Assembly: GCA_017999985.1 (NCBI GenBank)
Contig: JAGNKU010000003.1
Coordinates: 186,001-250,000 of the forward strand
Origin: Phycisphaerae bacterium
GTDB lineage: Bacteria > Planctomycetota > Phycisphaerae > UBA1845 > Fen-1342
Direction: 5' to 3'
Length of the DNA stretch: 64,000 nt
How positions within the stretch are numbered: the stretch's first letter is position 1; each line of letters opens with the position of its first letter. Shown here in pieces: positions 4,804 through 64,000 of this stretch. The notes beneath the pieces were generated by a model. It was not told where the DNA came from and ran no database searches. It saw only the letters and a list, made by a program, of their open reading frames with translations. Both the position numbers and the translations under genes were made by a program.

Positions 4804-5613
4804 TCAGTTCGTTCCCGACAACACAGGTGCCGCACCCGCGTCCGCGGCGGCCCCCGGCTGTTGACGTTGCCACGTCTTGAGCGGTCGTGCCAGGCGGAAG
4901 AAGACGCCGTCTACCTGGAGCAGTTGGCCGGTCCGGTCGTTAGCGAAGCCCGGTTCGAGCGACATGAGCGTGAAGCCGTGGTCGGCGATCAGCTCGCAGA
5001 GTTGCGGAAAGAGCATCTGGCCACCGTAGAGCTCGACCAGTGACATTTCCAGTTGCAGCCCGGCGATCTGGGGTAGGGTCCGGGCGGCGCCCGCCAGCAC
5101 GTCCTGCTCGTAACCCTGCGTATCGATCTTCATGAACACGTTGGCGGCGTCGCGGCGATATTCATCGAACAGCGCGTCGAGGCGACGCACGGTCACCGTT
5201 TCGGTGCCGACGTACGCCGAATGCGGGGCGGCTTCCAGGTGCGCCGGCTGCATGTCGCGCAGTGAGCTGCTGTGCATGTTGCCGGCCACGTGCATGACCG
5301 CGCGGCCGTCGCGGTCACCCAGCGCGACGTTCACCGTCTCCCACCGCGGGTCGTCGGCCGCGCTTTCCCGCAGCTTCGCAAACGACGCGGACAGGGGCTC
5401 GAAGGATACGACTCGCCCCGTGTATCCCCGCGCGCGCAGCGTCTGCACGTACTCACCCGTGTCGGCGCCCACGTCCAGCAGCAGGTCGATCTCGAAATTC
5501 GCCAGCAGCCGCGCCCGCCGGCGGATCGTCAGCGGCGGATACTCGACGAGGTCGTAACCCTGTCGGCGAGCGAAGCGACGAACCAGGTGTCGAAGCGGTG
5601 TCTTCCAACTCAC
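4804..5613 (-). CDS. FkbM family SAM-dependent methyltransferase
   Basis: About 269 residues. The SAM-binding motif I DLLLDVGADTGEYV is followed by VVSFEPLSASF (acidic residue for the ribose) and the family-typical FMKIDTQGYEQDVLAGA segment (about residues 155-172), all diagnostic of the FkbM methyltransferase fold. FkbM-type enzymes O-methylate sugars or related hydroxyls, so methylation of a glycan made by the neighbouring glycosyltransferases is a reasonable inference. Start: GTG 5613 forms a GTGA overlap with the stop of the upstream glycosyltransferase gene and has GGGAG about nine bases before it; an in-frame ATG at 5637 would extend it by eight residues. Confidence 0.85.
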   Translation of the reverse strand: MSWKTPLRHLVRRFARRQGYDLVEYPPLTIRRRARLLANFEIDLLLDVGADTGEYVQTLRARGYTGRVVSFEPLSASFAKLRESAADDPRWETVNVALGDRDGRAVMHVAGNMHSSSLRDMQPAHLEAAPHSAYVGTETVTVRRLDALFDEYRRDAANVFMKIDTQGYEQDVLAGAARTLPQIAGLQLEMSLVELYGGQMLFPQLCELIADHGFTLMSLEPGFANDRTGQLLQVDGVFFRLARPLKTWQRQQPGAAADAGAAPVLSGTN

Positions 5614-6875
5614 GTTCGCGCACTCCCGACGACGCATTCTGGCCGGCGGTCCGCCGCGCTGTCCGCGCTTGACCTCCGTGCCATGCCGTCGCCGGGCGAC
5701 GCTTCCTGTAAGTCGGGCCAGATGCTGTCAATGTCCACGCGCGTCCGCGCGCGGCGCTCGCAGATTTCCGCAGCCTCGCGGCCCCACGCCAGCCGCGCGG
5801 ATGAATCATCGATCAGTCGGTTCATCGCCGCGGCCAGGGCGCCCGGCCGGCTGCGGTCGAAGAGCACCCCGCCCCCCTCGGCCGCCACGATCTCGGCGAA
5901 GCCAGCGTAAACCTCCGGCGGCGCGTGCCGGGGAACCAGCGCCGGTCGTCCGCAGCTCAACCCCTCCTGCAGCACATTGGGGAACGTGTCGTAGTGACTG
6001 GTCGAGAGCACGCAATCCGCCGCGGCGTACCACGGGGCCATGTCGCGCTGCGCGCCGACCAGGTGCACGCGACCCGCCACGCCGAGCGCATCGGCCAGCC
6101 GCGCCAGCCGCATGCGTTCCGGCCCGTCGCCGGCGATGACCAGGTGGCCGCGGCCGTGCACGGACGGCAGGGCGCGAATCGCGAGGTCAAACGCCTTGTT
6201 CAGATCGCACACGCCGGCGGCCAGGAAGGCGAGGACATTGTCATTCAGGCCGAGGGTGCGGCGCTGCGCGGCGCGCCGGGCCGGATCCACGGGCTGGGGT
6301 CCGGGGCCGTAGGGCAGCACTGCCACCCGCGCGCGTGCGGACGGGTGAAACGTGAGCACCTCATCGCGCGTGGATTCTGTCGGTGTGAGAACCAGGTTGG
6401 CCAGCGCGAAGGCCAGGTGCTCGGCGTGGGTGATGCCCGCGAAATCGACCCGCCGCCAGAACGTCGGCGGCCGGTGTAACAGCCAGGTGAACGGCAGGCA
6501 GTTGTGCAGGAGGCAGGGCAGCTTGTAGATCACTGGCACGTCGGGCCAGGCGCGCTTCGCGGCGATGACCCAGTGCGGGCTCAGCGCCAGGAACGCGACC
6601 CGCGGCGCGGGCAGACGTCGTAACTGCCGCAGAAGTTGCGCTCCCACCCGCCAATGGCGCACCCGCCACAGCAGGGGCTCAACCGGCACCGGCACGTTGA
6701 ATTCCCGAGCGTCGTCCGGCACGGCCGCGGGCGCGTCGGGTGCCGTCGTGGTCCCCAGCAGGAGCGTGCTGCGGCGAGGCTCCGAGGCCGCGATGACGCG
6801 GCGGGCGAACGCAAGGGCGCCGCCCCAGCCGTCCACGTCGGTGAAACAGCCGACGTAGAGGTCTCTGGGCGTCAT
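5610..6875 (-). CDS. Glycosyltransferase family 4 (group 1)
   Basis: About 421 residues. The N-terminal domain starts DLYVGCFTDVDGWGGALAF. The C-terminal GT-B domain carries AFLAAGVCDLNKAFDLAI, HLVIAGDGPERMRLARLA, VHLVGAQRDMAPWYAAAD and the conserved E-x7-E-like segment FPNVLQEGLSCGRPALVP, where the glutamate contacts the donor sugar nucleotide. It is a retaining glycosyltransferase, probably cytoplasmic or peripheral, of the surface glycan cluster. The start is the ATG at 6873-6875; the open frame continues upstream, but that part lacks family similarity and runs opposite the MFS gene. The stop overlaps the start of the FkbM gene by four bases, so the two are likely translationally coupled. 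Confidence 0.85.
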   Translation of the reverse strand: MTPRDLYVGCFTDVDGWGGALAFARRVIAASEPRRSTLLLGTTTAPDAPAAVPDDAREFNVPVPVEPLLWRVRHWRVGAQLLRQLRRLPAPRVAFLALSPHWVIAAKRAWPDVPVIYKLPCLLHNCLPFTWLLHRPPTFWRRVDFAGITHAEHLAFALANLVLTPTESTRDEVLTFHPSARARVAVLPYGPGPQPVDPARRAAQRRTLGLNDNVLAFLAAGVCDLNKAFDLAIRALPSVHGRGHLVIAGDGPERMRLARLADALGVAGRVHLVGAQRDMAPWYAAADCVLSTSHYDTFPNVLQEGLSCGRPALVPRHAPPEVYAGFAEIVAAEGGGVLFDRSRPGALAAAMNRLIDDSSARLAWGREAAEICERRARTRVDIDSIWPDLQEASPGDGMARRSSADSAADRRPECVVGSART

Positions 6876-7024
6876 GGTGCCGGGGGACCGCATCGAGCTC
6901 GCTTGCCCTCTTGGGTGCCGCGGTTCGGTGTAGAGTACATCCGCTATATCGACCCGCCCGGCATGCGAGTTCGTTTGGCGGAGCGGATCAGGTGCGGTCG
7001 CCAGCCGCCGCGCTGCGGGCCCGA

Positions 7025-7030
7025 TATAAT
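7025..7030 (+). promoter_or_regulatory. Candidate -10 element upstream of the MFS gene
   Basis: A perfect TATAAT sits in the divergent 297-bp gap between the glycosyltransferase and MFS genes, about 140 bp before the MFS start. No convincing -35 box lies 16-18 bp upstream. The rest of this gap shows nothing else recognisable. Confidence 0.35.
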
Positions 7031-7172
7031 GTGCTCTGACGCGGCGCCGACGGAGTGCCGCCGTCGTCCGCGCCGCCAGTTGTGCGCAGGCGTCGCCGTG
7101 GTGCGCGGTCCGCCGCGGCCAATGTCGCTCGCGAGCTTGGAATCCCCGCATTATCCTCCGCCCGAGAGGTGC

Positions 7173-8570
7173 ATGACCAAGCCCATCACAGTTCGACCCG
7201 GCCCGACCCTGCAAGCGGGCGAAATGCCGGTCGTGTCGCCGGTCCCGGCGGCGCCGGACCGGCCGTCGCGCCTGCCGGCGGAGTTGGTTCGCGCGAGCCT
7301 GCGCAATTCGATCAAGGACGCGGTGGCGTGGTCGGTCATGTACGGCGCGGGCACGAGTTACGTGACACCCTATATCGTGTTGGGCGGCAAGGACCTCCTG
7401 TACATCGCAGCGTTTGCCGGACTGCCCGCGCTGGCGGGGGCGCTGCTGCAGTGGCTGTCCGCCAACGTGACCGACATGGTCGGGCACCGCAACCGCATCA
7501 TCGTTCCCACCGCGTTCCTGCAGGCGCTCACCTGGCTGCCGATGTGCATGGCGATCTTCCTGCCGTTCGACGCCGTGGGCTACTGGGTTGTGCTGGCGGC
7601 GTTCGTGGTCAATATTGCGCTGGCGAACTTCGCCGGTCCGCCGTGGCAGAGCATCATGGGGGACCTGGTGCCGCCCGAGCGGCGGGGGCGCTATTTCGGG
7701 ATCCGTACGGCGTTGTCCGGCGCCGTGCAGGTGGGCGCGTTTTTCGGGGCGGGCGCCTGGCTGACCTGGTGCACGGAGCGCGGCGGGTGGGCCCCGTGGG
7801 GGCTCAGCGGCCGTAATTTCGGCTTTCTGGTGCTGTTTGCGATCGCCGGCGTGGCGCGCTTTGTCTCGGCGTGGTACTTGAGCCGCGTGCACGAGCCGGA
7901 GTACCGGCAGGTGGCGACCGATCGCTTCAGCCTGCTGGATTTCATCCGCCGGGCACCGCGGGCACACTTCGGGCGGTTCGTGTTCTACTGCATGATCATC
8001 AACGCCGGACTCGGCGCGGTCGTACCGTTCCTCGGCTGGTACCTGCTCGGGCAGTTGCAGTTCACGCCGGCGGCGTTCGCGGCCGTGCTGGCGATGAGCC
8101 AGCTCTCCGGCGTGCTCACGCAGCCGCTGTGGGGGCGATTGGTGGACCGGCTTGGCAGCAAGCGCGTGCTGGCCATCGGCGGGATCGGTCTGGTTTTCGT
8201 GCCGCTGCTGCTGCTGGTTTGCCGCGACTTCTGGGCATTCATGGTCGTGATGGCGTACGAGGGGGTGCTGAACGCGGCCTTCTCGAATGCGGTGGGTAAC
8301 TACCTGTATGACGTGGTCACGCCGCCGAAACGGGCGCGGTGTGCGGCGTACTACAGCATGTTCGTCGCCCTGGGGACGCTGGTTGGGAGCTTCGGCGCGG
8401 CGCTGCTGGGGACATATGCGCCGGTGCCGCTCGACGTGGGCGGATTTGGCATTGTGCAGCCGTTCACGTGGCTGCTGCTGTGTTCCGCATTGCTGCGTCT
8501 GGCCGCGAACGTACTGCTGCTGGGCACGTTCGAGGAATTCCGGCTGCGGCGGCCGGCGTTTGAGACGTGA
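7173..8570 (+). CDS. Major facilitator superfamily transporter
   Basis: About 465 residues with roughly 10-12 hydrophobic helices in two halves. The loop after helix 2 contains the charged MVGHRNRIIVP segment, and the equivalent loop in the second half reads GRLVDRLGSKRVLAIGG, the classic MFS loop 2-3 / 8-9 motif (GxLaDrxGrkrxl). NIALANFAGPPWQSIMGDLVP with PPERRGRYFGIRTA resembles the fold of lysosomal/sugar MFS relatives in planctomycetes. Substrate is unknown. The protein begins with ~45 polar cytoplasmic residues before the first helix. Start: ATG 7173 preceded by GAGAGGT. It is a single gene, divergent from the glycosyltransferase. Confidence 0.85.
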   Translation: MTKPITVRPGPTLQAGEMPVVSPVPAAPDRPSRLPAELVRASLRNSIKDAVAWSVMYGAGTSYVTPYIVLGGKDLLYIAAFAGLPALAGALLQWLSANVTDMVGHRNRIIVPTAFLQALTWLPMCMAIFLPFDAVGYWVVLAAFVVNIALANFAGPPWQSIMGDLVPPERRGRYFGIRTALSGAVQVGAFFGAGAWLTWCTERGGWAPWGLSGRNFGFLVLFAIAGVARFVSAWYLSRVHEPEYRQVATDRFSLLDFIRRAPRAHFGRFVFYCMIINAGLGAVVPFLGWYLLGQLQFTPAAFAAVLAMSQLSGVLTQPLWGRLVDRLGSKRVLAIGGIGLVFVPLLLLVCRDFWAFMVVMAYEGVLNAAFSNAVGNYLYDVVTPPKRARCAAYYSMFVALGTLVGSFGAALLGTYAPVPLDVGGFGIVQPFTWLLLCSALLRLAANVLLLGTFEEFRLRRPAFET

Positions 8571-8740
8571 TCGGAGCAAAGCGGCGTGCGCGCGCACGGC
8601 ATGGGTCGCGTCAGAAGTTGTCGCGCACGGGCGGCGGAGCGGCTTGCGGGCGTGTCTGAGCGGATAGTATGGTGCAGGGCGTGTGCGGCGACGCGGTGCG
8701 GGCCGCGCGGGATGAATTGCGCAGCAGCCAAGGAGAAAAC

Positions 8741-9724
8741 ATGAGCGCGTTGCGTGGTGGTCTGGTGGCATTGGTGGCGGTGGGGATTCTGGCGGCGCCA
8801 GCCATGGCGTTGGACCTGGGGGACGCGGCTCCGCCGCTGAAGGTGGAGAAGTGGGTGAAGGGTGGGCCCATCGATCTGAAGGACGGCAAGGACAAGTCGA
8901 TCTATCTGATTGAGTTCTGGGCGACGTGGTGCGGACCGTGCCGGGCCACCATCCCGTACATGGCTGAATTGCAGAAGAAGTACAAGGACAAGGGCCTGGT
9001 GGTGATCGGCGTGAGCGTGGACAACGAGAAGACGCGCGACAACGTCAAGCCGTTCGTGGACGACATGGGCGACAAGATGGGCTACGCCGTCGCACTGGAC
9101 CAGAAAGAAGACGGCACGAGCACTGCCTACATGAAGCCCTTCGAACTGGACGGCATCCCGAGCGCGTTCCTGGTCGACAAGGCGGGCAAGCTCGTGTGGC
9201 TCGGGCAGGGCTATCCGCTGGTCGGCGTGGAGGAGGCGATCGATCAGATCCTGGCCGGTAAGTACGACCTGAAGGCTGCCCAGCAGGCGGAGAAGACCCG
9301 GCGCGCCGAGGCCGGGAAGCGGCGCCAGCTCATGGAGGAGATTCAGAAGTACTTCGAGCTGGTCAGCGAGAGCGAGAAGCCCGAGGGCGCCGACAAGCTG
9401 GGTCGGGAGGTCTTCGCGGCGCTTGGCAAGGACGCGATGCTGCTGAACGAGTTTTCCTGGGAGATTCTGACGGGCGAGGAGATCAAGTATCGCGACCTCA
9501 AGCTGGCGCTGGATGTCGGCAAGGCGGCGTACGACGCGTGCGAGGGCAAGGAGGCGGCCATCGTCGATACCTACGCCCGTGCGCTGTTCGACAACGGTAA
9601 CGTCAAGGACGCGATCGAGTACCAGAGGAAGGCCGTGCAACTCGCCGGGGACAGTCCCGAGATGAAGAAAGAGCTCGAGGCCACCCTGAATAAGTATGAG
9701 GACGCGGCCAAGAACAAGAAGTAG
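8741..9724 (+). CDS. Secreted thioredoxin-like (TlpA/ResA-type) protein with C-terminal helical extension
   Basis: About 327 residues. A signal peptide (hydrophobic residues 7-22, cleavage likely after AMA at 23) is followed by a thioredoxin fold of the TlpA/ResA/AhpC type, with the catalytic WATWCGPCR at residues 61-69 (Cys64, Cys67) and a conserved cis-proline segment (GIPSAFLVD). Such proteins reduce or isomerise disulphides on the outer side of the cytoplasmic membrane. After residue ~190 the protein becomes charged and alpha-helical (EKTRRAEAGKRRQLMEEIQ) and ends with a TPR-like stretch (YARALFDNGNVKDAIEYQRK), a layout common in planctomycete TlpA-like proteins. Start: ATG 8741 has AAGGAG at 8730-8735. 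A weak promoter-like TTGCGG-15-TAGTAT lies at 8644-8670. Confidence 0.85.
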   Translation: MSALRGGLVALVAVGILAAPAMALDLGDAAPPLKVEKWVKGGPIDLKDGKDKSIYLIEFWATWCGPCRATIPYMAELQKKYKDKGLVVIGVSVDNEKTRDNVKPFVDDMGDKMGYAVALDQKEDGTSTAYMKPFELDGIPSAFLVDKAGKLVWLGQGYPLVGVEEAIDQILAGKYDLKAAQQAEKTRRAEAGKRRQLMEEIQKYFELVSESEKPEGADKLGREVFAALGKDAMLLNEFSWEILTGEEIKYRDLKLALDVGKAAYDACEGKEAAIVDTYARALFDNGNVKDAIEYQRKAVQLAGDSPEMKKELEATLNKYEDAAKNKK

Positions 9725-13618: not shown

Positions 13619-15721
13619 CTAGAAGCTGCTCTCGCGCAGCACGACGCCTTGCACGTACCGCCACAGATCAGCCAGACGCGAGCGCGGCGACGTGCGGAGC
13701 CAGAGTGCGCCGGTCTGACCGACGCGCAGCTCAGGCGGCGGGGCATCCAGCGCGACTTCCACCTTGTAGTAGCTGTCGAGCATCTCGAGTCGGCCGCGCG
13801 CATCGGGCACGACCGCAATGTCGCCGCGCGCCACGGAGGCGAGACCGCGTTGCTCCAACACCGTGCTGCGCACCGGCTCCACGAAGGTCACGGTGCCGGC
13901 GAGGCGGCCCGGCTCGGCGTCGGAGCAGAAAGCCAGCCGCGTCCCCAGCGTTACGTCGCCCGCCAGATCGTCACGCACGTAGCCGACGATGCGCGGTGCG
14001 CGGCCGTCGACGATGCGCCCCAGCACCTGGTCGGCGCTGATGGGTGTGCCCTCGCGTACGCTGTCGTCCCATTCCATCACCACGCCGTCCACCTGCGCGA
14101 CGCAGCGATTCCGCTCGATGGCGGCCCGCAGCGAGTCGAGCCGGGCTTGTGCGCGCGCCAGCTCCTCGGTCTTCTGCGGCAGCAGCGCCCGCTGCCGGGC
14201 ATCGCTCTTGATCACCGCCAGCTCTACGTCCAGCCGCTCGATGTCGAGCCGGGCGATCTCCGCCTGCGCGTTGAGGTCCGCGGATTCGACGACGAAGAGC
14301 GTCTGACCGGCCTTGACCTGATCATTGAGCGCCACGTGCAACTCACGCAGAACGCCGGCGCCCGGCGCATAGAGCACCTGCGTGTCGCCGGCCACCGTCG
14401 TCGCCGGCACACTCTGCCGGCGGGGCAGCGGCAACGCGGCCCAGAGCAGGATCAGGAGCACGAGCGCCGCGACCAGCGGAGCCCGCCAATTCCAGCGCCA
14501 GAGCGGTCGCAGCCGCCAGAGCTGCACAGTCTCGTGCACAATCGGCCGGATGATGAACGTGTAGAGCGCGGCGCAGAAGACGATGACGCCGAGCGCTTTG
14601 GCAAGCCAGTGATAGAGCATGAGCGCAATCGCGGCGTAGAGCACGGCGCGGTACGCCGACGCGCCGAGCGCGTACGCCACGAGCGTCACCAGCCGGCGGC
14701 GCGGCAGGGGGGCTTCAGGCGGCGGCAACGGCAGCCCAAGGAGGTGCCGGCGCGCCAGCCACCGAAGCACGGCGAGCGCGCGGCTCTGCAGGTTGTCGAT
14801 GCCGAGCAGGTCGCTGAGCACATAGTAGCCGTCATAACGCCGGGCGGGATTCAGGTTCAGCACCAGCGTTGAGACCAGCGTGACGGATGACACGACGAAG
14901 CACAGGCTCTTCAGGGTGCCGGGCGGGCTGATGCCCCAGATGAACAACGCCAGGCCGGCCAGCACCAGCTCGGCCAGCACGCCCGCCAGCGCGATTGGCA
15001 GGCGTCGCCGGCGGCTGCGCATGCGCCAACTGTCGGTGACATCGGCGTACGCGACCGGGAACAGGAAGATCAGGGCCACGCCCATCGATGGCACGCGGTT
15101 ACCGAGCGCCTTGGCGACGTAGGCGTGACTGAATTCGTGGATCGTCTTGATGGCGATGATGGCCAGCGTGAACGTGGCGGCCCCGGCGGCGTTGAAGAAA
15201 TACGGAAACGTCGCCAGGTACGCGTCGAAGCGCTGCACCAGCCAGATCAGCCCCGCGAGCGTGAACGCGAGGTACAGCGTCAGGGCCGCTGGCGACGCCA
15301 GGTGCCGCACGGTGCCCACCGTGCGCGCGAGGAACGCGTCCGGCCGGCACAGCGGCACACGCAGGTAGACGAGCCGGCGAAACAGCGTGGCGATTCCGCC
15401 CAGCGACGTACGGCGTGGCGTGGCCAGTTGGCCGCAGGTCAGCCCGCGACCGGCGGCGTCGGCACATAACCGGGTGATATCGTCGGCGGACACGCGGATG
15501 GTGGATTCGCTGCGCAGGTGCGCAAGCAGGCGGTCGAGCGTCCAGGGAACGCGCAGCCGCCTCAGAATCTCGGCCTGCACCCAGGTGAGTTTCTCGAACG
15601 TCCCGCGCAGAGGATCATGGAGGACGTAGGTCGGTGCGCCGTCGCATTCAGCGGGGCCAAGGTGAAACTCGATGTCCGGTCGCAGTACGGGCAGCGTCGT
15701 GGGCAGGGCGTTCGGGCTCAT
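13619..15721 (-). CDS. Membrane M50 (site-2-protease-like) protein fused to HlyD-type adaptor
   Basis: About 700 residues. Residues ~15-105 form a cytoplasmic PqqD-like winged-helix domain (YVLHDPLRGTFEKLTW). Residues ~140-420 are a polytopic membrane region with the zinc metalloprotease motif HEFSH (His195, Glu196, His199) and, further on, NLNPARRYDGYY, the counterpart of the S2P NPxxxxDG motif (Asp297). Residues ~430-700 are a periplasmic HlyD/lipoyl-barrel module (VLYAPGAGVLRELHVALND, then a coiled coil and VVMEWDD). Relatives are membrane parts of peptide or bacteriocin export and maturation systems. Here it is the last gene of a TolC-HlyD-HlyD operon, six bases after its neighbour. It may process or export proteins at the inner membrane (inference). 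Confidence 0.85.
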   Translation of the reverse strand: MSPNALPTTLPVLRPDIEFHLGPAECDGAPTYVLHDPLRGTFEKLTWVQAEILRRLRVPWTLDRLLAHLRSESTIRVSADDITRLCADAAGRGLTCGQLATPRRTSLGGIATLFRRLVYLRVPLCRPDAFLARTVGTVRHLASPAALTLYLAFTLAGLIWLVQRFDAYLATFPYFFNAAGAATFTLAIIAIKTIHEFSHAYVAKALGNRVPSMGVALIFLFPVAYADVTDSWRMRSRRRRLPIALAGVLAELVLAGLALFIWGISPPGTLKSLCFVVSSVTLVSTLVLNLNPARRYDGYYVLSDLLGIDNLQSRALAVLRWLARRHLLGLPLPPPEAPLPRRRLVTLVAYALGASAYRAVLYAAIALMLYHWLAKALGVIVFCAALYTFIIRPIVHETVQLWRLRPLWRWNWRAPLVAALVLLILLWAALPLPRRQSVPATTVAGDTQVLYAPGAGVLRELHVALNDQVKAGQTLFVVESADLNAQAEIARLDIERLDVELAVIKSDARQRALLPQKTEELARAQARLDSLRAAIERNRCVAQVDGVVMEWDDSVREGTPISADQVLGRIVDGRAPRIVGYVRDDLAGDVTLGTRLAFCSDAEPGRLAGTVTFVEPVRSTVLEQRGLASVARGDIAVVPDARGRLEMLDSYYKVEVALDAPPPELRVGQTGALWLRTSPRSRLADLWRYVQGVVLRESSF

Positions 15722-15727
15722 GGCTCG

Positions 15728-17095
15728 TTACACCCCGCTCCAGCGGCGCACCGCGGCGAGCGGTCGGCGCAAGAGCCAGTAGCCCAGCGGCACGTTATCG
15801 CCGTAGAGCACGGCGGTGCCTTGCAGGCCGGTCTTCACGTTCGGGGCCGAGGTGGCCCATTCGGCCTCGGCGCGGAAGCAGACCTGCCCGGTGCTGGTCG
15901 TCTGGCTGTGATTCGCGAGGAACCGCAGCGTGGCCGGGTGGCTGGTCCGCGGGTCGGCGTCGAGAATCACGTGCAGCGGACGCTGCTCGTTGAAGCGCAG
16001 ATTGTCTTTCTCCGGCAGCCAGATGCGGAGCCGGGTCTGCTGCGGGTCGACGACCATCATGAGGCGCTCGCCGACCTGCACGGGGCGACCGCGCCACTCG
16101 TGCGGATCGGTGAGCATGACCGTGCCAGACACGGGCGCGCGGATTTCGAGTTGATCGACGTGGTGCTGCGCCAGGCCCAGCCGCGTACGTTCCTGGGCGA
16201 GGCGGTTTTCGAGCAACGCAACGGTGGAACGAGCGGTCGCATCCTGGAACGCCTGGACGCGAGCACGCTGCAGGTCGGATTCGACGATCTGCACCTGCTG
16301 CTGTGCGACCTTGAGTTCTTCTTCCGCCACGCGCTTGTCGTAGACTGCCAGCAACGTGCCGGACTCGACCGTGCGCCCAGGCAGGACGACGACCTCGGCG
16401 ATGACGCCGGCGAGCGGGGCGGTGATTGCCACCGGGTCTTTCGGCACGACCTCGCACTGCGCGACGATCCGCAACGGGACGGACACGAAGACGAGTGTGC
16501 CGAGCAAAGTAATCAGGACGCCCGCGGTCACCATGCGCGGACGCGTCGCCAGCGCTCTCCGCCACCAGGCCGGCCGCGGTGCGACGCTGCGCCACGCAAC
16601 GGCGTACGCCAGTGCGAGCGCGTCCAGGCACTTGCGATCCGACTCGGTGAACCGGCCCCCGGCCCAGCGTTCCAGCCACAGCGCTGCGACCGGGCGGTTA
16701 TCGACGACGATCGGCAGCCACAGCGCTGCCAGGCCGCCGGTGCGCCGCATCAGGCATTGCCACGCTCCTGCGCCGCCGTCCGGCACCTGCGGGCCAAGCT
16801 GCATCGTTTCGCGCCTCGGCAAACCGGCGACCACGCGCTGCCATTCGTCGACCAGCGGACCGTGTGCCTGTACGTCCGCCTGGCCAGAAACACCGAGCAG
16901 CCGCGGTTGCCGCCCACGCAGGTCCCAGAGCGTGGCGCGGTCGTAGCGGCAGTAAGCGACTGAGCGATTCAGCATGCGGAACTGCAACTGCTTGAGGTCT
17001 TCGCTCAGGCCGGCCTCCAGCGTGAGCTGCTGGAGCGTGGCCAGCGACTCGAACGCCTCGACGGGCACCGCGGTGGGAGGGGCCTGCGTGCTCAT
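15728..17095 (-). CDS. GAF-like sensor domain fused to HlyD periplasmic adaptor
   Basis: About 455 residues. Residues ~12-170 look like a cytoplasmic GAF domain (FESLATLQQLTLEAGL, YCRYDRATLWDL, LAALWLPIVVDNRPVAALWL, FTESDRKCLDALALAYAVA). One transmembrane helix spans about 188-207. After it comes a periplasmic membrane-fusion protein: lipoyl half-motifs (APLAGVIAEVVVLPGRTVES, IRAPVSGTVMLTDP) flank a coiled coil (about 265-325), followed by a beta-barrel domain. Adaptors of this kind bridge inner-membrane transporters and TolC. The GAF domain could let the adaptor respond to a cytoplasmic ligand, which is unusual. The gene lies one base after the upstream adaptor gene and six before the M50 fusion. 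Confidence 0.85.
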   Translation of the reverse strand: MSTQAPPTAVPVEAFESLATLQQLTLEAGLSEDLKQLQFRMLNRSVAYCRYDRATLWDLRGRQPRLLGVSGQADVQAHGPLVDEWQRVVAGLPRRETMQLGPQVPDGGAGAWQCLMRRTGGLAALWLPIVVDNRPVAALWLERWAGGRFTESDRKCLDALALAYAVAWRSVAPRPAWWRRALATRPRMVTAGVLITLLGTLVFVSVPLRIVAQCEVVPKDPVAITAPLAGVIAEVVVLPGRTVESGTLLAVYDKRVAEEELKVAQQQVQIVESDLQRARVQAFQDATARSTVALLENRLAQERTRLGLAQHHVDQLEIRAPVSGTVMLTDPHEWRGRPVQVGERLMMVVDPQQTRLRIWLPEKDNLRFNEQRPLHVILDADPRTSHPATLRFLANHSQTTSTGQVCFRAEAEWATSAPNVKTGLQGTAVLYGDNVPLGYWLLRRPLAAVRRWSGV

Positions 17096-17096
17096 A

Positions 17097-18089
17097 CTAG
17101 GGGGTCCGCAGCTCCGACAGTTGCAGCGTGCCGTTCATGCCGGCCCGCAGTTCGCCGGCCGCGTTGTCCAGCTCGGCGTAGACCTCGAACGTCTCGCTGG
17201 CGGCGTCGAGCACGGCGGCGATGTGTGAAATGCGCACCACGACGGTAGCGCCGGTCTCGCGGACGTCCAGATGCAGCTCCTGCCCGAGGCGCACGCCGCG
17301 AAACAGCGTGGACGGCAGCAGGAATTTGGCCCGCAGGACGCGGTCATCGACGATTTCGATCGCCGGCGTGCCGCGCTCCACCAGCTCATTCTCATTGATG
17401 AGCACCCGCGCGACGCGTCCGGCGTACGGCGCCTTCAGCGTGCAGCCGCGCAGCTCGCCCTGCGCGAGGTCACACCTGGCCTGAGCCACGGCGACATCGC
17501 GCTCGGCCTTGCTCAGTTCCTTCGCGGCACTGGCGGACACCAGCTCGCACTCGGCTTGCGCGGTTTGCACATCGCGACGGGCATTCTCGAGGTCGACCAG
17601 CGAAGCGTGCCCGTCGTCGTGCAGGCGCTGGGTGGCGTTCAGGTTCGCCTTGGCCGCGGCCAGGACGGCATCGGCATGGCGTTGTCGCGTGTTGGCCTCG
17701 GTCAGCTTGCGGGCCTGGACAAGGTCCTGTTGGGCACCGGCCAGCTCCGCCTGTGCAATCTGCAGGTTGACGCGGTACGTCAGGTCTTCGAGTTGTACGA
17801 GGACTTCGTCGGCCTCGAAGCGCTCACCCAGTTCCTTCTTCACGGCGGCCACGCGCGCGGAGACCTCGGCGGAGAGAATCGCCTGGTGTTGGGGCGTGAG
17901 GATCGCCGTGACGATCCGCGCTGCGTCGGCGTGTGACGCGGCGCGCATCGTCGATGCGTCTTGACCGCGCGCTTGCACGGATTGTGCAGCGGACGGGACC
18001 AAGAGGGCCGCCAGGATTGCCGCGCTGCATATCAACGCCCACCCGAACCGTGCCCTGAGCGGGCGAGTGGCTTGCGACATTGCTGTCAT
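17097..18089 (-). CDS. HlyD/RND-type periplasmic adaptor (membrane fusion protein)
   Basis: About 330 residues. A signal or anchor helix (about residues 16-35) is followed by a first lipoyl half (ILSAEVSARVAAVKKELGER), a long coiled-coil hairpin (about 105-210, rich in Ala, Gln and Glu), a second lipoyl half (TLKAPYAGRVARVLINENE) and a beta-barrel domain (LGQELHLDVRETGATVVVRI). It should form the periplasmic sleeve linking an inner-membrane component to the TolC-like protein. It starts in an ATGA overlap with the upstream TolC-like gene, so the genes are translationally coupled. It is the second adaptor of the operon, and no ABC or RND pump is present. Confidence 0.88.
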   Translation of the reverse strand: MTAMSQATRPLRARFGWALICSAAILAALLVPSAAQSVQARGQDASTMRAASHADAARIVTAILTPQHQAILSAEVSARVAAVKKELGERFEADEVLVQLEDLTYRVNLQIAQAELAGAQQDLVQARKLTEANTRQRHADAVLAAAKANLNATQRLHDDGHASLVDLENARRDVQTAQAECELVSASAAKELSKAERDVAVAQARCDLAQGELRGCTLKAPYAGRVARVLINENELVERGTPAIEIVDDRVLRAKFLLPSTLFRGVRLGQELHLDVRETGATVVVRISHIAAVLDAASETFEVYAELDNAAGELRAGMNGTLQLSELRTP

Positions 18090-19588
18090 GACGCGCCTCC
18101 CTCAGCCGGCGGTGACAGCTGGAGCGCGTCCGGCAGCAGCGGCGGATTGAACTCGTCATCTCCCAGGTCATCGCCGGGGTCGCGGCCGAGCGTGTTGCGC
18201 AGCCGCGCCTGGGCAATGCGAAACTCGGCGTAGGCGGTCAGGTAGCGTGCGCGGGCCTTGAGGTAGCGCATGCGCTGATCCACCGTCTCGCCATCGTGTG
18301 ACTTGCCCTCGCTGGCGGTGGACTCCACGGCCGCGAGCAGGGCGCGGTGTTTGGCGGCGATGACGCCGGCGAGGCGGCATTGCGCGGCGGCTTCCGCGCA
18401 GTCGATGAGCGTCAGGTGCAGTTGCGTGAGGATGCCGACGGCCAGCGCCGTCCGCCGGCGCGCGACGAGCTCGGTCTGGAGGGTCAGCGCATGGTGCTGC
18501 ATGAGGTGCTGCGGGATGGCCAGCAGGTCCCACGCGGCGCGGAGGCCGAGCGTGTGCCACTGGTTGAAGACCAGGAAGCGATTGTCGTCGATGTCGAAGC
18601 GCCACGAGAGGTTGAGGTTCGGGAACAGCTGCGCGATGGCCACGTGGGCGTCCGCCCGGCTGATTTCCTCTTCGCGGTCCTTCTCGTAGAGCTCGGGCCG
18701 GTTGCGCAGGGCCTCGTCTTCCAGCGCGGCCACGTCCGTGTCGGGCGGGACCAGCGGCTGGTCGAGGTCGATCTCGGCCAGTTCGACGGTCGTCCCCGGC
18801 GCCAGGCCCATCAACGTGGCCAGCTCGGTGAGCGCCACCCGGTGAGCGCGCTGGTAGCGGCGCAGCTCTTCCTGCTGCTCCAGGAGCTTGGTCTCGTTCC
18901 GCAAACCGTCGATTTGCGAGATGGCCTGCTCCGCAATCTCTGCGCTGCTCAGCGCGATGCGAGTCTCGACTTCGGCGCCGATGCGTTCGGCCTCGCGCGC
19001 CGACTCGCGGGCGGTGACTGCCTGCCAGTACGCGCGCGTGACCTGCAGGGCGAGGTCCTGCTTCACCCGCCGGACGCGCTGCGCGGCGATCCACGCGCGG
19101 TCGGCCTGCTGCCGGGCGCGGAAGTACGAGATGCCGAAGTCCAGCAGGCTCCAGGTCATGGAGATATCGAAGGTGCGGGCGCTCTGGTCCGCCGAGAAGG
19201 ACGGCTCCAGCGACTGCTTGTGCCGCCGCAGGCTTTCCGAGCTGGCCGCGTCCAGCTCGGAGCGCCAACTGGACTCAGCGCCGGCGAGCAAAGACGGCAG
19301 GAGCTTCAGGAGCGATTGCGTGGAAAGCTCGTGCTGGAACTGACGCTCGTGCTCGGCGATCCACACCTCGATGTTGTGATTCAGCGCGCACTCCAGTGCA
19401 CTGCGCAGCGTGACCGATGGCGCGCTCTGCGGTGCGCGGGCCTGGTAGGCGGCGAGGTCCAGCGCGGCGTGGCGGGCGCGCAGTTCCTCGTGGCCGGGTT
19501 GCGTCGCGCAACCGGCCAGGACGGCCAGCGCCACCAGCGCTGCCAGACGTTGGCGGTGCGTGCTGCGGGTACGGGAATCAGACGTCAC
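18086..19588 (-). CDS. TolC-family outer membrane efflux lipoprotein
   Basis: About 500 residues. An Arg-rich n-region and hydrophobic stretch end in the lipobox LAGC (Cys about 27), so it is probably an outer-membrane lipoprotein. The rest has the two-fold repeated coiled-coil architecture of the OEP family: SALECALNHNIEVWIAEHE, TWSLLDFGISYFRARQQADR, ATLMGLAPGT, ALRNRPELYEKDREEEISRADA, AAWDLLAIPQHL, and a second helical set near the end. It should form the outer-membrane channel/tunnel of the export machine. Start: GTG 19588 gives a compact signal peptide; a GTG at 19645 is possible. First gene of the four-gene operon, divergent from the giant LEPR/DUF4347 protein. Confidence 0.85.
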   Translation of the reverse strand: MTSDSRTRSTHRQRLAALVALAVLAGCATQPGHEELRARHAALDLAAYQARAPQSAPSVTLRSALECALNHNIEVWIAEHERQFQHELSTQSLLKLLPSLLAGAESSWRSELDAASSESLRRHKQSLEPSFSADQSARTFDISMTWSLLDFGISYFRARQQADRAWIAAQRVRRVKQDLALQVTRAYWQAVTARESAREAERIGAEVETRIALSSAEIAEQAISQIDGLRNETKLLEQQEELRRYQRAHRVALTELATLMGLAPGTTVELAEIDLDQPLVPPDTDVAALEDEALRNRPELYEKDREEEISRADAHVAIAQLFPNLNLSWRFDIDDNRFLVFNQWHTLGLRAAWDLLAIPQHLMQHHALTLQTELVARRRTALAVGILTQLHLTLIDCAEAAAQCRLAGVIAAKHRALLAAVESTASEGKSHDGETVDQRMRYLKARARYLTAYAEFRIAQARLRNTLGRDPGDDLGDDEFNPPLLPDALQLSPPAEGGAS

Positions 19589-19913
19589 GTTGATGCTTTC
19601 AGTCCATGCTACCGATCTTGCATTGCTCCACGAGGCAACCGCCACGCCCCCAAGTCAAAGCGTTTATCGGCACTGGCCGCGCGCATGGTGAACGCCGGCC
19701 CAGCGGATGGCCGGCGGGGCGGGGGCGGGCGAAACATTACCGGAACCAACGGCCGGAATTGCCAGTGGCGCGCAAGGTTGGGCGTGGGCCGCCGGAGTAC
19801 GCACCCGCCGGTCAGCCTCACAGCGCAAATGCACGATGAAGAAGGTAGCGGGCTTCGCGCGGGGCCAGTGGTCCGATAAGTCATCCGCCCCAGTTTGCGC
19901 GATCCCGAACGCG

Positions 19914-22900
19914 ATGAAGTGGCACAACCCGCCAGCCGCGAACCCTACCCCGCCAGAGGGCCGGTCCATCCTGCCGTGGACGCTCATGCGCCTGGAAGAG
20001 CGGATCGTGCTCGAGGGCAGCGGTGCCCCCGAGGGCGCGTGTGCTGCGCACATCGACGCTGTTGCTGAGCCCGCCGATGCGGTTCCACCAGATGCCTTGC
20101 ACGCCGTGCAGCATGCCATCGAGCACGCCCTGGGGGTCGCCCTGGACACGGATGGCCGCGCCTGCGGGGCGGAGCGCGTGTTGGCGGTCTCATCGGATGT
20201 CGAGGACGCGCACACGTTGCTCACCGCCGCTACCCCCGATGTGCACGGGGTCGTCTTCGATGCGCAGGCCACGACGCTCGCGGGGCTGCTCGCGCGAATC
20301 CGCGCGGAACTAAATGGGCAGGCCGCGGACAGTATTGCCCTCGCCACCCATGGGGACGTGGTGGGCGGCTTCCAATTGGTCGCGGGCCACCCGGTGAACC
20401 TCGAGACGATTCACCACCCGGAGATGCGGGCATTCTGGGAGGGGCTGGCTGAGCTGGTTCACCCGGGCGGCCGGATCGACGTGCTGGCGTGCGACGCGGC
20501 GGCGGGGCTGCACGGGCAGGTGTTGATGGCGGCGCTGGAGCAGGTGACCGGCGTAGATATCGCGGCGTCCGTGGATGCGACGGGGGCGCCGGGGCGCGGC
20601 GGCGACTGGGTGCTCGAAACCGACGGCGTGGACGTCGGGTGCCTGTACTTCGTCCCAACGCACTTGGCGAGGTTCACGGAGCTGCTCGCGGGTCCCACGA
20701 TCGCGGACACGAACCCCAGTCACACGGTCGTCGGCGGTTCTGGCCCCGTGGTGCTGGACCCGGGCATTACCGTAGGCGACGGTGGGGGCGGCCTGCTGCT
20801 GGGTGCCGCCGTGCGCATCAAGAGTGGGTTTGTGCCGGGCGAGGACTGGCTGTCGCTGGACGCCGATCTGGCTTCGAGCTCGATGGTCACCTGGTCCTAC
20901 GACGCGGCGACCGGCGTGCTGACGATCGCGGGAGACAACTCGGCCACGGCGTACCAGGCGCTGCTGCGGACGGTCACGTACGAGAACACGAGCACGACGC
21001 CGAGCACGACGCCGCGCGAGTTCATGTTCGTGATCGGCGACACGTTCGACACGTACCGGTACCTGACTTCCAACGGCCACTACTACCAGTTGGGCGATCC
21101 GCCCGGGCCGGCGACGATCACGTGGGCGGCCGCGCAGGCGGACGCCGGCGCACGAACGCTGTTTGGCCTGCAGGGGTACCTGGCGACGATCACATCGGGC
21201 GCCGAGAACTCACTGGCCGCGATACTGGTGCCGGCGATGCCGGTGAACAAGGAAGCGTGGCTGGGCGGTAGCGACGTGGCTGCGGATGGGGTGTGGACCT
21301 GGGTCACGGGTCCGGAGGCCGGCACGCAGTTCTGGCAGGGCGACGGCACTGGTTCGGCCGTCAACGGCATGTACACGCACTGGAACGTACCGACGTACCC
21401 AAACGTGGCCGGCGCCAGCCAATTGACGATTGTGCGTTCGAGCGCATGGTGGCACGACGCGGCGGACGGCATGGCCCACGACTATTTCATCGTCGAATAT
21501 GGCGGGCTGGCATCAGACACCGAGGGGCAGCTCGCGGCGTGCATCACCGTCGATGTCGTTGCGCCCAATCACGCACCGGTGCTCGACAACACCGGGCTGA
21601 TGCGCCTGACCGCAATCAACGAGGACCACGTCACCAACGCCGGCACCAGTGTGGCGAGCATCATCGCATCCGCCGGCGGCGACCGGATCACGGACTACAA
21701 CGTCGATCCGGAGGGCATCGCGTTGACGGGGATCGACACGACGCACGGGAGCTGGCAGTACTCGATCGATGGTGGCGCGACCTGGCACACGGTCGGTGCC
21801 GTGGGCGAGGACCATGCACTCTTGTTGCGCTCGACCGACCTGCTGCGCTTTCGGCCTCATGCGGACTGGAACGGCACGGTTGCCGCCGGAGTGGCGTTCC
21901 GTGCCTGGGATCAGTCCGCCGGCTCAGCGGGCGGTTTTTCCGATGTGACCACGAACGGCGGCCAGACGGCCTTCAGCACGGCCAGCGAGACGGCCAGTAT
22001 CGCGGTGAACGCGGTCAATGATGCGCCGGTGCTGGATAGCTCCAGCCCGCTGCACCTGACCGACCTGGATGAGGACGCGGTCGGCAACGGCGGCATGACC
22101 GTCGCCGACTTGCTGAATTCCACGGGCGGCAACCGGATCACCGACGTGGACGCGGGCGCGCTGCGCGGCATCGCGGTGATCGGTCTGGATGCCGCGTACG
22201 GCACATGGCAGTATTCGCTCGACGGGGGTCTGACGTGGCTGAACATCGGCGCTGTGTCGTCGAACCACGCGCTGTTGCTGCGCACGACCGACCTGCTGCG
22301 CTTCCAGCCGGCAGCCGACTGGAACGGGGTGCTCGATCCGGCGCTGGCGCTGCGGGCCTGGGACCAGACCAGCGGCGTCGCGGGCGGCTACGCGGATGCG
22401 AGCATCACCGGCGGCACCACCCCGTTCAGCGCCGCCGCGGTTGGGGCTGACCTGCTCGTGCACGCGGTGAACGACGCGCCGCACGTCGCGCATCCGCTGG
22501 TCGATCAGCACGTCGGTGATGACGCCGCGTTCAGTTTTGGTTTGGCCGTCGATGCGTTCCGCGATGTGGACGCCGGCGACATTCTGACCTATACCGCGAC
22601 GCTGGCCGACGGCAGCGCGCTGCCCGAATGGTTGACGTTCGATTCCGCGACGCGCACGTTCTCCGGGCAGCCTGGCCCGGGGGCAGTTGGCATCTGGAGC
22701 GTCCGGGTGATCGCCACGGACGGGCATGGCGAATCCGCGGCCGATGTCTTCGACATCGTGGTGGCCCACGTCAATCATGCCCCGACGCTGGTCCAGCCAC
22801 TCGTGGACCAGAGCGTGACGGCGGGAACGCCGCTGGCGTACCAGCTACCGCCCGATGCGTTCCACGACGTGGACGCGGGCGACACGCTGACGTATCGCGC

Positions 22901-24191
22901 GACGCTGACGGACGGAGGCGCGTTGCCGGCGTGGCTGGTGTTCGACAGCACGACACGTACGTTCCAAGGTACGCCGCACGCGATGGATGCCGGCGTGTAC
23001 CAGGTGCTCGTGACCGTGGAGGACGGGCAGGGCGGGGCGGTTACAGGTGCGTTTGTCATCACGGTGGCGCGAACCGCGCCGGTGGAGCCGTTCGACCCGA
23101 CTGATCCGCCGGGGGCGGACACGCCGGTCAAGCCGCCGGCGCACAACTCCGGCGGCCGTGACACGACTCCGCGCGGGTCGAATTCGTCCGGACCGTCTGG
23201 AGGCACAACGACGGCGGGTGGGACGACGAGCGGTGCGGAGCATGCGGGCGGCGGTCCGGCGGCCGCGGACCCCGGCGGCGCCGGCGACGCGACCAGTACT
23301 TGGGACGCTGACGCGCCGGCCGCGAGTGGTGACAGCGCACCCGGAAGCGCGGGCGATGGTCCGCATGCCGTTGGCGCGGCCCCGGTCGCGGACATGCCGG
23401 CCGCCGGGGCATCGGGGACGGCCGCGGCCGGCCGCGTGGACGATGAGCACGAGGCTGACGACGCGTGGTATCGGCGTCGGCTGGAAGAACCGGAGTGGGC
23501 CAGCGCGCAGCAGGCCGCGGACATGCAAAGTGCCATTCTGAGCGGCGAGCTGTTCGACGATGCCGCGCAGCCGGCAGAGTTCCGCGCGGCCTGGGACACG
23601 ATCCTGGGTGCCTTGGCGGACAGCAGCGTGGAATTGACCGCGTACCTCCAGTCGGCGTTTCGCACGGTAACCGAGGCGGCGCATCTGTATCAGGCGTCCG
23701 AGCAGGCGCTGGCCACCCTGATGGACGAGCTGGCGCTGGCGGATGGGATGAACGCGCGCGGCCACCTGGACGAGTTGCTGGCCGCCGCCGGTGAGGCCCG
23801 CACGCTGGTGCGCGTGACCAGCAGCGAGCTGCAGGCGGTGATCATGGCGGCGGCGGAGGCGGGGCGGCAGGGCAGCTTCGACCGTGTGCTCGATGACGTC
23901 ATCGGCGCGGCGCTGCACCGCCTGATCACGGCGAACGAGCGGCTGTTCATCGAAACACAGGCGGTCGCCGCGGCGACGGCAGTGCTGCACGAAGCCCGCG
24001 TGCACGGTGAACGGGAGATCGATGCCGACGTACTGCCGATCGAGCTGGCCGAATCGCGCGTGGCGGCCGAGTCCGCGTTCAGAGAGATTCGCAAGAGCTG
24101 GGACCGGGTGGCGGAAGACGCGTTCGCCGCATTCGTGGCGCAGCTCGTCGCCCAGCACGGCACGCAGGCCCAGGGTCCCGCGGCGCAGTGA
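19914..24191 (+). CDS. Large surface protein: LEPR-like N-terminus, DUF4347, C-type lectin-like, cadherin/Ig-like repeats
   Basis: About 1425 residues. MRLEERIVLEGSG (about 25-37) resembles the LEPR-XLL motif found at the start of very large planctomycete proteins, thought to be a sorting signal. DUF4347 follows (about 90-255; IALATHGDVVGGFQLV, IDVLACDAAAG). A C-type-lectin-like domain lies at about 380-533 (YLATITSGAENS, WLGGSD). Two cadherin-like repeats start near 551 and 702 (NHAPVLDNTG, NDAPVLDSSS) and two He_PIG-type Ig repeats near 853 and 955. A Gly/Pro/Thr-rich linker (1055-1176) leads to an alpha-helical C-terminus. It is likely exported and adhesive. It is divergent from the TolC/HlyD/M50 operon, a plausible exporter for it. 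Start uncertain: ATG 19914 chosen, 19836 and 19707 in frame; the 325-bp divergent gap shows no clear ribosome-binding or riboswitch signal. Confidence 0.8.
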   Translation: MKWHNPPAANPTPPEGRSILPWTLMRLEERIVLEGSGAPEGACAAHIDAVAEPADAVPPDALHAVQHAIEHALGVALDTDGRACGAERVLAVSSDVEDAHTLLTAATPDVHGVVFDAQATTLAGLLARIRAELNGQAADSIALATHGDVVGGFQLVAGHPVNLETIHHPEMRAFWEGLAELVHPGGRIDVLACDAAAGLHGQVLMAALEQVTGVDIAASVDATGAPGRGGDWVLETDGVDVGCLYFVPTHLARFTELLAGPTIADTNPSHTVVGGSGPVVLDPGITVGDGGGGLLLGAAVRIKSGFVPGEDWLSLDADLASSSMVTWSYDAATGVLTIAGDNSATAYQALLRTVTYENTSTTPSTTPREFMFVIGDTFDTYRYLTSNGHYYQLGDPPGPATITWAAAQADAGARTLFGLQGYLATITSGAENSLAAILVPAMPVNKEAWLGGSDVAADGVWTWVTGPEAGTQFWQGDGTGSAVNGMYTHWNVPTYPNVAGASQLTIVRSSAWWHDAADGMAHDYFIVEYGGLASDTEGQLAACITVDVVAPNHAPVLDNTGLMRLTAINEDHVTNAGTSVASIIASAGGDRITDYNVDPEGIALTGIDTTHGSWQYSIDGGATWHTVGAVGEDHALLLRSTDLLRFRPHADWNGTVAAGVAFRAWDQSAGSAGGFSDVTTNGGQTAFSTASETASIAVNAVNDAPVLDSSSPLHLTDLDEDAVGNGGMTVADLLNSTGGNRITDVDAGALRGIAVIGLDAAYGTWQYSLDGGLTWLNIGAVSSNHALLLRTTDLLRFQPAADWNGVLDPALALRAWDQTSGVAGGYADASITGGTTPFSAAAVGADLLVHAVNDAPHVAHPLVDQHVGDDAAFSFGLAVDAFRDVDAGDILTYTATLADGSALPEWLTFDSATRTFSGQPGPGAVGIWSVRVIATDGHGESAADVFDIVVAHVNHAPTLVQPLVDQSVTAGTPLAYQLPPDAFHDVDAGDTLTYRATLTDGGALPAWLVFDSTTRTFQGTPHAMDAGVYQVLVTVEDGQGGAVTGAFVITVARTAPVEPFDPTDPPGADTPVKPPAHNSGGRDTTPRGSNSSGPSGGTTTAGGTTSGAEHAGGGPAAADPGGAGDATSTWDADAPAASGDSAPGSAGDGPHAVGAAPVADMPAAGASGTAAAGRVDDEHEADDAWYRRRLEEPEWASAQQAADMQSAILSGELFDDAAQPAEFRAAWDTILGALADSSVELTAYLQSAFRTVTEAAHLYQASEQALATLMDELALADGMNARGHLDELLAAAGEARTLVRVTSSELQAVIMAAAEAGRQGSFDRVLDDVIGAALHRLITANERLFIETQAVAAATAVLHEARVHGEREIDADVLPIELAESRVAAESAFREIRKSWDRVAEDAFAAFVAQLVAQHGTQAQGPAAQ

Positions 24192-63700: not shown

Positions 63701-64000
63701 GATGGCCCCGATCGAGCTGTCCACGACGCACGCGAACTGGTTGAGGGCGATGATTTCATCGTTCCACGAGTACTCGTACGCCTTCGGGTGGCTCGTTCCG
63801 GGCAGAATGTCGTGGAATTGCCCGCCAAGGACCAGCGTCCAGGCGTCGTTCAGCCGCTTCTGCGGATAGGCGGGGCCGCCCAGCCAGTCGGCGAAGACCG
63901 CGGCCCGTTCGGCCGCGTCGGCCAGCCGCTCGTTCTTGAAGTTCCAGCGCTTCATGTAGCACTGCGACGTGATCGAGCCGGCGGAGTGCTCAGTGAGCAG
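60797..64000 (-). CDS. GH38 alpha-mannosidase C-terminal region with dockerin-like tail (5' end outside window)
   Basis: The frame is open to the last base of the window on the minus strand, so only the last ~1068 residues are seen. GGQFHDILPGTSHPKAYEYS (near the window end) is the conserved block after the catalytic GH38 domain; the beta-sandwich domains follow (GVPLVVYNPLSITREDVVEA and on). The catalytic nucleophile region is outside the window. The C-terminus carries two dockerin-like units, GDLNCDGAVNFADINPFVLY and GDINGDGLFPSFSDINPFVV, as found on secreted Phycisphaerae enzymes. It is likely exported and acts on mannosidic glycans. The stop is 45 bp from the convergent GspE gene. Confidence 0.85.
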   Translation of the reverse strand: MLTEHSAGSITSQCYMKRWNFKNERLADAAERAAVFADWLGGPAYPQKRLNDAWTLVLGGQFHDILPGTSHPKAYEYSWNDEIIALNQFACVVDSSIGAIATGLDTEATGVPLVVYNPLSITREDVVEARIAWPGVLPTAVRVLNPSGVEVPSQIVSAADGELRILFLATVPSVGLAVYDVQAAATAATSTLSVTTSSLENARYIITLDGNGDVANIYDKTAGRELLTAPARQAFSHDFPAAWPAWNIDWEDAQQPPQAYVSGPATVQIIENGAARVALQVTRDSQGSHFVQTIRLAAGGAANRVEFANTIDWMSSICNLKAVFPLTVANPNATYNWEVGTLQRGNNNASKYEVPAHQWFDLTAANGTYGVTVLSDCKYGSDKPDDHTLRLTLVRTPGAAGGYEDQATQDWGRHEILYGLTGHVGDWRASQTDWQALRLSQPLIAFQTTAHSGALGRWLSLLTVNHSRVRVMAVKRAEDSDEVIVRLVELSGQPATNVHVSLPTAIAAAREVDGQEQPVGAATVMNGALVTNLNPYQLRAFALTPGAPPTQLPAIEQQVVALPYNRAVTSSDGQSATDGFDDGGRCLPAEMLADEIDYRGITFALGPVAGGQLNAVTCAGQSITLPTGTYNRLYLLAAATNGDRTATFAVNGTPMHLTIQDWSGYIGQWDNRLWDGGVQEVAFSWPWPYVGLDPAYIRPDPVAWFCSHRHTPAGVNEVYTYCYLFGYTLDLPPGATTLTLPMDDHVQILAATAAYDPATGTFPAQPLLDELQRNVAAKPIMTPLAATGWNRDVIVERTAVPPLGNFAASFDVRNGYAYYERGLPGSVKGLPQGGDFVSRVDGTTQGQLQSYDAPNVLMLDAATPTGTLTLDAAAQRPYERLAIFAASTNASSSSVGTVTITFTDNTASDALTYKGYDWFFVISSNGLYDLGRVRLASASFEDDSNGNPRIYQTTLDLAALGLHTKPVRSLTFQLASGNDSGRTTGIFALSGARVALPGDLNCDGAVNFADINPFVLYLSNISAWRTAYADCPPTVGDINGDGLFPSFSDINPFVVLLAGRDSARPQE

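Follow-up and report, generated by a model that had tools for sequence, protein, structure and literature searches.

The genes for GAF-HlyD, M50-HlyD, HlyD and OEP proteins have previously been found together around a secondary SecA_DEAD ATPase, with SecA_DEAD suggested to act as the ATPase and the M50 protein as the pore of a module of which the authors stated that nothing at all was known about its biological role (Kamneva, Poudel & Ward 2015, PMC4452313). The open-access literature that we searched yielded no follow-up to this module, no paper joining PqqD, HlyD and M50, and no description of a function for LEPR-XLL. In the window studied here, that is, the whole 64,000-nucleotide stretch of DNA that was analyzed, four such genes stand without that ATPase beside a gene for a giant surface-type protein. 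On balance we consider it probable that they form a module dedicated to exporting or processing giant surface proteins with a short N-terminal LE-x-R leader, a reading that draws on the observed linkage, domains and absence of SecA2.

Architecture of the locus

The operon occupies positions 13619-19645 of the minus strand in the order TolC, HlyD, GAF-HlyD and M50-HlyD, and the cargo gene diverges from it across an intergenic region delimited by the ORF boundaries (19646..19913). The TolC and HlyD genes overlap by 4 bp, while gaps of 1 bp and 6 bp separate HlyD from GAF-HlyD and GAF-HlyD from M50-HlyD; these coordinates and junctions confirm the four-gene operon, divergent from a 1425-residue protein, that an earlier note on this DNA had described. 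Gene calls are mechanical ORFs, and many of the genomes compared below are fragmented MAGs. The TolC-family outer-membrane lipoprotein, with the lipobox LAGC (18086..19645, minus strand; Pfam OEP, 8e-23), probably has its real start downstream of the listed GTG. It is followed on the same strand by a 330-aa HlyD/RND-type periplasmic adaptor (17097..18089; TIGR01730 at 4e-31, exceeding the cut-off, and HlyD_3 at 3.9e-16), a 455-aa GAF-like/HlyD fusion (15728..17095), and a 700-aa RRE-M50-HlyD fusion with seven predicted transmembrane segments in an N-in/C-out arrangement (13619..15721; Pfam Peptidase_M50, 4.2e-10). As regards the GAF-HlyD fusion, the HlyD part stands (HlyD_3, 2e-16) and the GAF part is a weak match under the Pfam cut-off (GAF_2, 0.0028). 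The 1425-aa cargo (19914..24191, plus strand) contains DUF4347 (6.1e-22) and He_PIG (1e-40) in Pfam, in agreement with the DUF4347 and Ig-like domains first ascribed to it, the supposed lectin-like part being a sub-threshold C-type-lectin match (0.036). Among the tested proteins flanking the operon there is no ABC or RND gene, which accords with the initial view that the visible neighborhood lacks a pump. Of two RND-sized ORFs (about 1050 aa), the one at 5610-8771 encodes a glycosyltransferase and the other, at 60797-63955, a GH38 mannosidase.

In the M50 protein, the approximately 95 N-terminal residues form a PqqD-like RiPP recognition element (RRE; aa 11-95, 15437..15691, minus strand), as indicated by the family profile and the beta-beta-beta-alpha-alpha-alpha topology predicted by AlphaFold2. 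The top three matches of the profile for this region among PDB sequences were all RRE chains, namely TfuB1 (8.9e-5), PqqD (4.4e-4) and TbiB1 (1.5e-3). Pfam PqqD matches 9 of 24 family members, and some relatives carry the NCBI name 'PqqD family'; the window protein by itself has no significant PqqD match in Pfam, and the PqqD-like domain proposed earlier is thus supported at the level of the family but not by this single sequence. The presence of an RRE suggests a mode of cargo recognition, in which it would bind the leader.

The membrane core carries the zinc motif HEFSH (aa 195-199, 15125..15139, minus strand) and the second motif NPARRYDG (aa 291-298, 14828..14851, minus strand), and with HExxH and an NPxxxxDG-type motif placed in membrane helices it qualifies as an M50 (site-2) metalloprotease. 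The residues H195, E196, H199, N291, P292 and D297 are invariant in all 22 aligned M50 proteins and G298 nearly so; HExxH is present in every proteobacterial member checked, followed by a second motif of the form [N/S]-P or N-G and then xxxR[FY]DG. The active-site motifs are accordingly kept across the family. The NCBIfam models nearest to it describe metalloproteases of RiPP maturation (daptide HExxH, 2.8e-40, under the cut-off). The HlyD/MacA-like periplasmic adaptor half (aa 431-690, 13652..14431, minus strand) was recognized by fold comparison with MacA (VIA Z 16.6, 238 aligned, rmsd 4.3), and matches to this half fill the fold-search lists for the entire protein. In the AlphaFold2 model (mean pLDDT 86.5) an N-terminal beta3-alpha3 domain precedes a helical membrane core and the MacA-like half; the seven transmembrane segments and positive-inside loops predict a cytoplasmic RRE and a periplasmic HlyD half. 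The C-terminus ends in a conserved RES-x-F tail (13619-13636) found in most members of its clade.

The cargo and its leader

The usual neighbor of the operon is a giant protein with the N-terminal motif L-E-x-R-x-Φ-[LFY]-[DS]-[AG], which takes the form LEER(I/V)(V/L)(L/F) in planctomycetes and LEPR, or the near variants LESR, LENR and LERR, in proteobacteria. In the window cargo the motif survey and an alignment with 15 cargo proteins from other loci, in which E28 and R30 are invariant, place it at LEERIVLEG (19992..20018, plus strand). This refines the LEPR-like motif reported earlier: it occupies the position of LEPR-XLL, but the window cargo gives no match to the NCBIfam LEPR-XLL model NF012209 (threshold 17 bits) even at E<=10. 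Cargo proteins of L128 and L130 score 26-27 bits against NF012209, cargo of the related module being detected by the model. Across the fetched neighborhoods the motif is found within the first 200 aa of 29 out of 951 frames of at least 300 aa; 28 of these are large proteins, nearly all operon-adjacent or with DUF4347, and the remaining one is likely a chance match. Hydropathy over 12 residues peaks at 0.6-1.9 in the cargo N-termini, whereas most TolC/HlyD controls from the operons reach 1.9-2.8 (one TolC with an uncertain start gave 1.36), and by this simple measure no Sec-like hydrophobic segment was seen near the cargo N-terminus.

LEPR proteins are also encoded at a distance from the operon, as expected for a tag acting in trans: a second LEPR gene lies on a separate contig (L166) in genome G200, and scattered LEPR matches number 12 in G185 and 11 in G152. 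Two other LEER pattern matches in the window's own genome proved to be internal to unrelated ORFs, so that a single cargo is seen there. The candidacy of DUF4347 as the defining feature of the cargo was rejected because the cargo of G425 has LEPR without DUF4347; what marks the cargo is the LE-x-R leader at its N-terminus, with DUF4347 common but not universal. In the window this domain of alpha/beta fold spans 20181..20687 on the plus strand, as delineated by the Pfam match, alignment and predicted fold. Its cysteine is invariant in the cargo alignment and its histidine usual, the latter being lost in L073 and L131. The best structural match of the DUF4347 model is Tce1 (Z 12.8), a Pseudomonas aeruginosa effector of type VI secretion, and CHAT and caspase-like domains are matched at only Z 6-7. 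These comparisons were made with a view to a possible caspase-like (clan CD) protease with a His/Cys dyad.

Genome G037 has DUF4347 cargo genes in a tandem of three (L055 9674-16698), each about 690 aa long and with the common leader LEERVLFDAA. On Magnetospirillum pMSR-1 (L176 6502-7980) the gene next to the operon encodes an ELWxxDGT protein of 492 aa in which no LE-x-R leader is visible, possibly because this is a cargo gene that has been truncated.

Recurrence of the gene set and its SecA_DEAD-bearing relatives

The gene set is found in at least eight planctomycete loci, with one genome having two and one locus being rearranged. Near relatives of the M50 protein (>200 bits) among 199 planctomycete genomes come from G005, G094 (twice), G037, G126 and G197 in addition to the window's genome. 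Except in G197, a gene with DUF4347, a domain present in just 17 of the 199 genomes, lies no farther than about 12 kb away. The TolC-HlyD-GAF-M50 order beside the cargo is kept in most loci and in two more planctomycete contigs (55-61% identity); in G037 the operon genes are rearranged around the three tandem cargo genes, and in G197 the M50 gene is split over two frames and no cargo gene is nearby. A relative on a Porticoccaceae contig pointed to Gammaproteobacteria, and the set indeed recurs in Alpha-, Beta- and Gammaproteobacteria and on plasmids, with five-gene synteny of operon and cargo extending from planctomycetes to plasmids of all three proteobacterial classes. Full cassettes, annotated as TolC, RND adaptor, HlyD and HlyD, are present on plasmids of Kosakonia, Azospirillum, Niveispirillum, Burkholderia and E. 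coli; in the last they are rare (24/5426 genomes, mostly on plasmids), and the cassette of Cupriavidus CH34 was recovered by ORF search. As the same genes occur across phyla and on plasmids, the window set is not a local accident, and its arrangement with the cargo is far beyond chance. The earlier note had proposed to look across planctomycete genomes for recurrence beside LEPR/DUF4347 genes without an ABC or RND pump; we observed such recurrence across phyla, and the set extends beyond planctomycetes. Separation of operon and cargo is not frequent, but a few loci (L057, L115, L121) show no cargo gene next to the operon, and near the operons of these three and of L179 there is no LE-x-R gene, which speaks against the proposed module.

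Genes annotated as 'tail fiber protein' (about 205-300 aa) adjoin the cassette on Kosakonia, Azospirillum, Burkholderia and Niveispirillum plasmids (L171 17134-19241; L172 2994-4853; L177 445-1059; L182 2510-3409; L183 2856-3545), and it is possible that they encode accessory surface proteins.

Co-occurrence across whole genomes follows the same pattern. The M50-HlyD gene is present in 40 of 274 gammaproteobacterial genomes, and DUF4347 in 23 of these 40 versus 8 of the 234 others; counted from the other side, 23 of 31 genomes with DUF4347 have M50-HlyD versus 17 of 243 without it (Fisher 2e-16). M50-HlyD likewise accompanies LEPR-XLL in 18 of the 21 LEPR genomes among the 274 Gammaproteobacteria (p 2e-14), the three others having no M50 gene at the cut-off used, and in 16 of 17 among the 199 planctomycetes (p 6e-11), these p-values, like the one for DUF4347, being descriptive because the genomes are non-independent.

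A quick M50 tree, with SH-aLRT support alone, separates a clade of 20 rows including the window (clade A), all without a secondary SecA, from a clade of 26, of which 22 have one (SH-aLRT 99). The window genome (G000) yielded no secondary SecA_DEAD, its one SecA_DEAD match being the canonical 1351-aa frame, and the other clade-A genomes searched have canonical SecA only, except G037, in which the secondary SecA_DEAD adjoins its other M50 copy. The sister clade usually has a 630-760 aa SecA_DEAD gene beside M50, and both lineages adjoin LE-x-R giant proteins. Together, the split in the tree and the SecA_DEAD searches identify the window as belonging to a SecA_DEAD-less sister lineage. It is a fresh variant of a barely described module, for which the substrate class, the leader and the RRE reader appear to be new. 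A Methylosinus gene product annotated as 'prepilin peptidase' (L180 14171-16087) is a misannotated SecA_DEAD homologue of the related module.

Proposed mechanism, rival explanations and known systems

We propose that the cargo is synthesized with no Sec signal and that its LEER leader would be captured in the cytoplasm by the N-terminal RRE of the M50-HlyD protein, much as RREs capture the leaders of RiPPs. The seven-TM M50 core might then draw the leader into the membrane and either cleave it or open a path, and the HlyD half of this protein, GAF-HlyD and the stand-alone HlyD could together span the periplasm as a conduit leading to the TolC lipoprotein, by which the cargo would arrive at the surface. 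Dedication of the set to LEPR/LEER-type giant proteins is favored by their adjacency across phyla in the absence of an ABC or RND pump and by the conserved M50 motifs, and the reading as a module further draws on the conserved leader motif, the RRE homology, the topology and the lack of a secondary SecA in the genomes of the clade. Energy supply is the weakest point of the proposed mechanism: as there is no ATPase in the cassette, export of very large proteins would have to draw its energy from another source, candidates being canonical SecA, the proton-motive force or a factor encoded elsewhere. In its boldest form, a hitherto unrecognized secretion pathway in which an RRE-read LE-x-R leader and an M50 core serving as inner-membrane gate pass multi-thousand-residue cargo via adaptors and TolC with no dedicated ATPase, the proposal is unlikely to hold. 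The use of canonical SecA in place of the related module's secondary SecA_DEAD ATPase is suggested by the usual presence of SecA_DEAD beside M50 in the sister clade and of canonical SecA only in window-clade genomes; it is compatible with the export/processing module and would refine it, and we view it as no better than a modest chance.

M50 proteases usually cut transmembrane segments and are not known to serve as translocation channels, which counts against passage of the cargo through the M50 core. The main rival is that another export route takes the cargo across the inner membrane, the module reading and clipping the leader and retaining or releasing the cargo at the outer membrane. That M50 enzymes are proteases, the affinity to RiPP maturation enzymes and the ATPase-free cassette speak for such processing or anchoring, but TolC with three adaptors has the architecture of a conduit, and the cargo without a visible Sec-like signal and the predicted cytoplasmic RRE also make this rival rather unlikely. 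Type I secretion through an ABC exporter encoded elsewhere, with M50-HlyD as an accessory adaptor or protease, would agree with the TolC and HlyD components and with full-length HlyB-like exporters in G126 and G317 that come near the cut-off (635-644 bits). However, a search limited to HlyB-type exporters found none above the cut-off in 12 genomes including that of the window, where a generic ABC exporter without the N-terminal domain scores best. RTX nonapeptides are likewise absent from the window cargo and, but for single matches in two proteins, from clade-A cargo. Far from a pump being always adjacent elsewhere, in none of the loci read is the operon directly flanked by an ABC gene, the relatives having SecA_DEAD instead, and a type I system is accordingly quite improbable. 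The annotation of TolC/HlyD proteins as efflux components might suggest a small-molecule efflux operon adjoining an adhesin gene by chance, an idea contradicted by the synteny across phyla and plasmids and by the genome-wide co-occurrence, and scarcely credible in their light.

The export/processing reading, if correct, assigns to a widespread module, described in 2015 as having a completely unknown role (PMC4452313), its class of substrates, the tag that addresses them and the domain that reads this tag; it also offers a function for the LEPR-XLL motif and ties RiPP-style leader recognition to the export of giant surface proteins. Tractable bacteria that carry the locus include Cupriavidus metallidurans CH34, Azospirillum and Magnetospirillum.

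Like the module of Kamneva et al. (PMC4452313), the window locus unites GAF-HlyD, M50-HlyD, HlyD and OEP and has no ABC transporter, whereas the former comes with a secondary SecA_DEAD and no assigned substrate and the window clade is without that ATPase; a substrate class, leader motif and RRE are assigned here. It shares with type I secretion (HlyB/HlyD/TolC) an adaptor, an outer-membrane channel and giant cargo without a signal peptide, but there is no ABC exporter and the tag is N-terminal rather than a C-terminal RTX/secretion signal. The short LE-x-R motif at the N-terminus of a very large protein recalls LEPR-XLL (NF012209), although the LEERIVLEG variant escapes that model. Finally, RiPP systems (the PqqD and lasso B1 RREs, and the daptide and YydH/LiaK metalloproteases) likewise feature an RRE and related M50 maturation enzymes; in the window, by contrast, the RRE-M50 is fused to an export adaptor, and the proposed substrate is a giant protein instead of a small precursor peptide.
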